NCBI GenBank assembly: GCA_003161615.1
Contig: PMOB01000030.1
Location: forward strand, 35,794-80,078
Direction: 5' to 3'
Length of the DNA stretch: 44,285 nucleotides
From: Actinomycetota bacterium
GTDB lineage: Bacteria; Actinomycetota; Thermoleophilia; Gaiellales; Gaiellaceae
Positions 10,660 to 11,298 of this stretch are shown here, one piece after another (the stretch's first letter is position 1; each line of letters begins with the position of its first letter). A program made the position numbers and the translations under genes. Below the pieces are notes generated by a model that had not been told where the DNA came from, made no database searches, and worked only from the letters and a program-made list of their open reading frames with translations.

Positions 10660-10854
10660 GTGGCGGCTAAGCGTGAGGCCGAAGAGCTCTTGATGATCGA
10701 AGAGGCCGACGCCTGGTTCGAGTACCTCGAGGCAACGCGGAGCCAGGCGGAGAGCCGCTACCACGAGATCGAGCCCTGGGCGTGGGCCCGCCTGTCGCAG
10801 CGCTTGCGCGCGATCAGAGCGCGACGGGCACGGCTGCGGCCGGCTGCCGCGTAG
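10660..10854 (+). CDS. Small uncharacterised protein, 64 residues
   Basis: I do not recognise a family. The start is GTG 10660 with a strong ribosome binding site, GGGAGGTG (10648-10655). The protein is almost entirely helical: an acidic first half (EAEELLMIEEADAWFEYLEA) and a strongly basic end (RLRAIRARRARLRP). It contains several aromatic residues (WFEYLE, PWAWARL) and has no cysteines and no membrane segment. A cytosolic protein that binds nucleic acid or ribosomes is possible from the charge pattern alone. Its TAG stop is the first codon of structured repeat copy A. Confidence 0.72.
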   Translation: MAAKREAEELLMIEEADAWFEYLEATRSQAESRYHEIEPWAWARLSQRLRAIRARRARLRPAAA

Positions 10855-10935
10855 CTCGCGAAGCTGCGCTTCGCTCGCTGGGTGAAGGAACTCGGGAGCG
10901 GAAGAGCGCGGTCTTCCGCTCCCTCGTGCTGTAGA
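10852..10935 (+). repeat. Structured 3'-UTR repeat, copy A
   Basis: Starting at the TAG of the 64-residue gene: hairpin 1 pairs GCGAAGC with GCTTCGC (10858-10874), then the core CTGGGTGAAGGAACT (10878-10892), then hairpin 2 with a perfect 12-bp stem and loop GCGCGG (10894-10923), then TCGTGCTGT. Copy B downstream of rodA has the same order on the other strand. It shares the core and the GCGCGG loop exactly while the stems differ in sequence but still pair. Confidence 0.7.
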
Positions 10936-11018
10936 GCTTGTTCTGGGCTGACGCATGGTTCAGAGCGCTCTCCCGTCGCGAGCGCGCAGGCCTTCGGCGT
11001 GCCCGCCCGCTACTCCGC

Positions 11019-11045
11019 GGCGGCGTAACGCACCGTTACGCCGCC
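11019..11045. repeat. 12-bp perfect hairpin between the two repeat copies
   Basis: GGCGGCGTAACG and CGTTACGCCGCC pair around a 3-base loop CAC. There is no T tract on either strand, so this is not a canonical intrinsic terminator. Confidence 0.6.
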
Positions 11046-11068
11046 ACCTGGGCGCCGTGGGGGTTCTC

Positions 11069-11139
11069 ACCGTTCGAGCAAAGAACGGTCCTAGGCCGGA
11101 GGCTAAGACGCCCGCGCAGCGGCGACTTAGCCGCAGGCC
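11069..11139. repeat. Two further stem-loops in the rodA-proximal gap
   Basis: ACCGTTC/GAACGGT pair at 11069-11089. GGCC and GGCTAAG pair with CTTAGCC and GGCC at 11094-11139, around a 3x3 internal loop (GGA/GCA). Together with the repeats they fill the 441-base gap between the 64-residue gene and rodA, where I see no further coding frame. Confidence 0.5.
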
Positions 11140-11209
11140 GCACTGCGCTCGCGCCGGCCTCCGCCGCGCGCGAGCGCACGACGTAGCCAGTCCGTCCAGA
11201 GCATCACCA

Positions 11210-11298
11210 GCAAGAACAGCACGGAGCGGGACGGAACCGCGCTTCCGGCCCGCGCAGTTCCTTCACCCAGCTCGCGAGAGCAAAGCTCTCGCGAGCTA
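11210..11298 (-). repeat. Structured 3'-UTR repeat, copy B
   Basis: Read on the minus strand from the rodA stop: hairpin 1 is a 12-bp stem with loop CTTTG (11269-11297), then the core CTGGGTGAAGGAACT (11256-11270), then hairpin 2 GCGGGcCGGAA / TTCCGtCCCGC with loop GCGCGG (11226-11253), then CCGTGCTGT. The order, core and loop match copy A, and the stems are different but complementary. Confidence 0.7.

Follow-up and report, generated by a model that had tools for sequence, protein, structure and literature searches.

Results

A 447-bp non-coding element joins two convergent genes

The window, by which we mean the whole 44,285-nucleotide stretch analysed, contains two convergent genes – a gene of 64 residues and rodA – whose TAG stop codons mark the limits of a single 447-bp non-coding unit (10852–11298, + strand, left to right). 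The unit is bounded by inverted ends of ~83 bp with two hairpins each. Each end opens with TAGCTCGCGA at the stop codon and continues with hairpin 1, the core CTGGGTGAAGGAACT, hairpin 2 (loop GCGCGG) and CGTGCTG. The stop codons are part of the element boundary: the left TAG (10852–10854, + strand) ends the 64-residue gene and also provides the element's first bases, while the right TAG (11296–11298, − strand) is the stop of rodA and the first bases of the right end. The left end (10852–10931, + strand) comprises hairpin 1 at 10853–10879, an exact copy of the core at 10878–10892 and hairpin 2 at 10894–10923, with its loop at 10906–10911; the right end (11217–11298, − strand) carries a second exact copy of the core at 11256–11270. 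Four further hairpins occupy the interior, all given on the + strand: hairpin 3 (10975–11013), hairpin 4 (11017–11048, GCGGCGGCGTAACG...CGTTACGCCGCC), hairpin 5 (11094–11139, GGCCGGAGGCTAAG...CTTAGCCGCAGGCC) and hairpin 6 (11140–11179, TGCGCTCGCGCCGG...GCGCGAGCGCA). No ORF fits the element. The right end was at one point considered as protein-coding, possibly a small membrane peptide; this idea was dropped, the interior being a chain of hairpins whose length varies among copies.

A sequence-only reading of the window had described two structured repeats on opposite strands at TAG stops, sharing an exact core and an identical loop, and this description is accurate. It had also taken the repeats for independent 3′-UTR elements, which they are not: because the interior between them recurs at other sites too, the two look-alike repeats are the inverted left and right ends of one element. 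The core itself, with up to three mismatches, gave four matches against 0.39 expected, far above chance.

Copies in the genome and their subtypes

A search for the core across the whole genome revealed a second inward-facing pair of ends with the same interior (L003/L015). R1, a covariance model built from 15 ends and comprising 84 positions and 25 pairs, scores the window's left end at 82.9 bits (E 1.1e-12) and its right end at 97.3 bits (E 1.9e-15). In this genome it identified 27 ends, spread over 18 sites, and it also matched 11 of the 16 genomes of the genus; the prediction of further copies made from the window alone is thus borne out. Both ends are present at nine sites, the window element included. 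In paired copies the ends face inward and are matched by the one 84-position model, and the copies span 188–457 bp without a transposase gene. Autonomous copies were also sought: inward ends 3 kb apart (L074, L075) enclose ordinary genes only. Alignment of 18 full copies, all oriented from left to right, shows that the left and right interiors differ from one another yet are conserved across copies, with hairpins 3–6 lying between the ends. The two ends have nearly invariant linkers, GAACT and CGTGCTG, which are mutually complementary across the element; since they hardly vary, their complementarity is no evidence for pairing.

Alongside the double-ended type there is a single-ended type of ~250–280 nt, which shares this end but differs in its interior and has a tail partly conserved around GTGAGAGTCCGCACTGGCGCAGGCGA (L011, L023, L034, L041, L009, L044). 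Hairpin 1 was not seen as a stand-alone repeat in this genome. Runs of N (L015 near 1476; L012 near 1402) and contig ends (C18, C22) interrupt some copies, and the numbers counted in these MAGs are therefore likely to be too low.

Covariation in the stems

The stems of the two copies in the window had been read as covarying, which two copies can do no more than suggest. The pattern holds on 15 ends: 91.8% of stem cells are paired, both sides have changed in 17 of 25 pairs, and the covariation score of 0.373 (0.120 when shuffled) was reached in none of 500 shuffles. Were the pairing under selection in RNA, G.U should exceed A.C on the sense strand. Across hairpins 1 and 2 of 91 distinct ends, however, ~2,000 cells contain 14 G.T and 30 A.C (11 pairs counted in hairpin 1 and 12 in hairpin 2, two usually mismatched inner pairs of hairpin 1 being left out). 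Because G.T is no commoner than A.C, the pairing of the ends is better explained by DNA palindromes than by RNA, and DNA-level pairing in hairpins 1 and 2 is supported by these counts. When full-length copies are aligned and an RNA program picks the structure, the counts are 49 G.T and 25 A.C among ~1,880 cells; hairpin 6, with 11 G.T and no A.C, is the most RNA-like part of the element.

Rfam 15 at the gathering score returned only tRNA from the window and nothing significant from five element-bearing loci. No U-tract terminator was found at the element ends, and a search for intrinsic terminators gave one weak match, within hairpin 5. The proposal of selection on RNA or single-stranded DNA structure therefore stands in part: the structure is under constraint, while an RNA role is disfavoured by the G.T and A.C counts, by the missing U-tract and by the fact that either end of the element can stand after a stop codon. 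The idea that hairpin 1 was lengthened by copying the flanking gene was rejected, with just three of 118 stems extending past the boundary. At one locus in G008 (L055, 93–125) the 5′ arm of hairpin 1 is the coding end of the flanking gene, and the stop, TGA, lies in the loop.

Stop codons and TA

Genes reading into the element were called by the codon usage of the flanks for 111 distinct ends. A gene reads into 78, and in 37 of these the element's TAG is the gene's stop; in 59 of the 78 (the 37 included) a stop lies 0–10 nt from the element, and 51 of these 59 stops are TAG. The bias to gene 3′ ends suggested by the window is therefore strong. Of 73 canonical ends, 57 have TA first, a dinucleotide that makes up 1.05% of the flanks; among ends of other subtypes it flanks only 12 of 45. 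The base before TAG in canonical ends varies (C 22, G 15, T 11, A 9). Copies upstream of genes also occur (L083, L084, L078).

In this genome an end falls at the stop itself in 14 of 18 sites (L034 judged by hand against its orthologue). TA makes up 1.0% of the dinucleotides of the window, and 35 of its 79 non-coding TAs (44%) are within stop codons. Measured against all non-coding TAs (the 44% null) the figure of 14 in 18 has p = 0.004; against TAs downstream of a stop, p = 0.07. With TA so scarce, and 44% of non-coding TAs in stops, insertion at TA together with purifying selection is nearly enough to account for the stop-codon position, and the 3′-end bias is largely what these two factors would give in a TA-poor genome. 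Of the 54 genes called in 1–44285, 32 stop at TAG, the most frequent stop, against 11 each at TAA and TGA, and in five of nine convergent pairs the overlap is exactly CTAG; for a genome rich in G+C this is unusual.

Filled and empty sites

The orthologues of rodA in the genus lack the element and mostly end in TGA near the site. In G006 the same two convergent genes as in the window lack the element; 4 nt separate their stops, and a TAG stands at the same codon as the left TAG. The clearest comparison is that of an empty site (L166) with a filled one (L020): in the former the stops overlap at CTAG, and GCC-TA-GAG corresponds to GGG-TA[G...C]TA-AAG in the latter, where TA is present on both sides and the right-hand protein ends at the same residue as in L166. 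Further comparisons are L179 with L081 and L018, L146 with L092, and L097 with the window. At L179 and L146 the position of the stop is kept, but several to ~30 nt of flank are gone. In general empty and filled sites differ by more than a clean TA duplication, with ~4–30 nt of flank missing; L166/L020 fits a duplication well.

Several element sites are common to different species. Copies within a genome are ~75–86% alike (the best pair from different sites in this genome reaches 0.86), and no two copies from different sites are nearly identical, so there is no sign of recent movement. In genomes with more than one double-ended copy, each of the 26 such copies is closest to another copy from its own genome. 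Moreover, at three orthologous sites the element stands in opposite orientation (L008/L047, L019/L088, L084/L078), and in the last of these its boundaries differ by ~12 nt. Clustering by genome and not by orthologous site, together with the opposite orientations, suggests repeated insertion. Repeated independent insertion at favoured sites would be the simplest reading of these comparisons, with inversion accompanied by gene conversion as a possible alternative.

Distribution beyond this genome

In a first sample, R1 matched none of 45 genomes from outside the genus; among 299 genomes sampled from the class it gave three weak matches outside the genus. Two of these are diverged relatives in another genus of the family, each with hairpin 1 directly after a TAG stop. 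In the first (L188, 1500–1620) the TAG belongs to an NlpC/P60-like gene and the layout that follows is that of the element, with the same hairpin-2 loop, GAGCGCGGTC; the second is L190. The third lies in apparent coding sequence. A pattern scan of 84,980 species returned MAGs of the genus, which are soil Thermoleophilia and include isolate palsa_739, together with five records scattered elsewhere; occurrence beyond the family was rejected, these five and one viral contig all scoring at most 18.5 bits with R1.

Search for a mobilising enzyme

No mobilising enzyme was found among the DDE_3 and Y1 families searched. IS630-type DDE_3 is absent from 15 of the 16 genomes of the genus and is represented by a single fragment in the other (G005); an IS630-type helper was accordingly rejected. 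Y1 (IS200/IS605-like) transposase genes are present in 14 of the 16 genomes, with one to four each (L124–L135, L223–L242). Y1_Tnp is absent from this genome, with its 27 ends, and from G013, with 15. Among the 32 Y1 loci examined (some overlapping) there was no R1 match with E below 0.1 and no element within ~1.5 kb. A helper of the RAYT kind (REP-associated Y1 tyrosine transposase) was therefore also set aside: Y1 genes are frequent in the genus, yet they are absent here and adjoin the element at none of the loci examined. The DDE_3 and Y1 loci searched contain no full-length insertion sequence that shares the element's ends.

Discussion

The entity described here is a real, apparently undescribed family of MITE/REP-like palindromic DNA elements. 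The suggestion that it belongs to no named family has held up – there is no Rfam match, and we found no description in the open-licence papers searched – and the alternative offered at the outset, a mobile REP-like palindrome family, was of the right kind. Dispersal of the element is well supported, TA insertion is likely and the element is probably mobile. We think it probable that it is a non-autonomous interspersed DNA element, served by an enzyme in trans, whose insertion at TA recreates TAG stops.

The element has much in common with the MITE-like bacterial repeats with TA termini (ERIC, RUP, Correia/NEMIS) reviewed in PMC2229807. Like these it is small, non-coding, dispersed and intergenic, has terminal inverted repeats and stable stem-loops, carries TA at most of its canonical termini and lacks a transposase of its own; as in bacterial MITEs of the ERIC/RUP type, it is a short, dispersed, non-autonomous repeat. 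It differs in length (447 bp versus ~100–200), in having two complete hairpins per end, in being G+C-rich and in showing no recognised sequence relation to ERIC, RUP or Correia. RUP, moreover, has a proposed IS630-type helper, which the genus lacks save for the one fragment.

How might such an element come to supply stop codons? An enzyme acting in trans would recognise hairpins at the ends, extruded or in single-stranded form, whose loops and linkers are conserved. The element would be inserted at a TA dinucleotide, and TA would end up flanking it on both sides. As the element begins with G after TA, entry at the TA within a stop codon (TAG or TAA), or within the CTAG shared by two convergent genes, would recreate TAG and leave the proteins intact; with TA scarce outside stops, surviving copies would then be those that lie on stop codons and supply them.

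The likeness to GTAG-type REPs and BIMEs raises the issue of whether the ends are REPs in the strict sense, mobilised by a RAYT, with the inverted pair constituting a BIME. The parallels are substantive: both are palindromic, occur as inverted pairs and preserve their palindromes by complementary changes (PMC2817692), and GTAG REPs are reported often to supply the TAG stop of flanking ORFs (PMC3733652), which provides a precedent for the element's stop-codon habit. The presence of Y1_Tnp proteins in most genomes of the genus points the same way. Nonetheless we regard a strict REP/BIME as unlikely. RAYT genes are reported always to be flanked by REPs (PMC2817692), and none of the Y1 loci examined is flanked by the element or its ends, while two genomes rich in ends have no Y1_Tnp at all. 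There is no fixed GTAG or GTGG head before the palindrome: TAG is common, and the base preceding it is no fixed G. Finally, REPs measure 20–40 bp, unlike a unit of 450 bp whose interior is conserved and holds four more hairpins.

A functional RNA or 3′-UTR element would be a terminator active in both directions, or a structure affecting mRNA stability, that has spread to the ends of genes and is maintained because selection acts on how the RNA folds. Such an element would account for the closeness of stops, for the strong covariation, for the RNA-like hairpin 6 and for the occurrence of the single-ended type between co-directional genes. We judge it rather improbable, given that hairpins 1 and 2 show no excess of wobble pairs over A.C mismatches, that the ends have no U-tract, that Rfam offers no match, that either end may follow a stop and that copies also stand in front of genes. 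Least credible to us is an old, vertically inherited element, homogenised in each genome by gene conversion and flipped via its inverted ends, with no ongoing transposition. Sites common to several species, and within-genome copies that are alike without being identical, are consistent with this account; presence and absence vary, however, at rodA and other loci, the ~12-nt shift in boundaries at L084/L078 is at odds with it, and the diverged stems of the ends are poor substrates for homologous flipping.

A bolder proposal, which we advance tentatively and think doubtful, is that the element represents a new structural class: a mobile element recognised as folded DNA and tuned to stops and to the CTAG of overlapping convergent genes, which has entered the same gene ends repeatedly and independently across species by means of an enzyme not yet recognised. 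If true, a chain of palindromes would be enclosed by inverted ends of two hairpins each, the fold and not the stem sequence would be what is recognised, and the proteins would be left unchanged. The element also provides a worked case in which base-pair covariation, the usual sign of RNA, more likely reflects DNA palindromes, with the G.T and A.C cells serving to separate the two. Our analysis adds a family of long, interspersed palindromic elements, seemingly undescribed, from uncultured Thermoleophilia of soil, and offers a simple account of their position at stop codons in a TA-poor genome.
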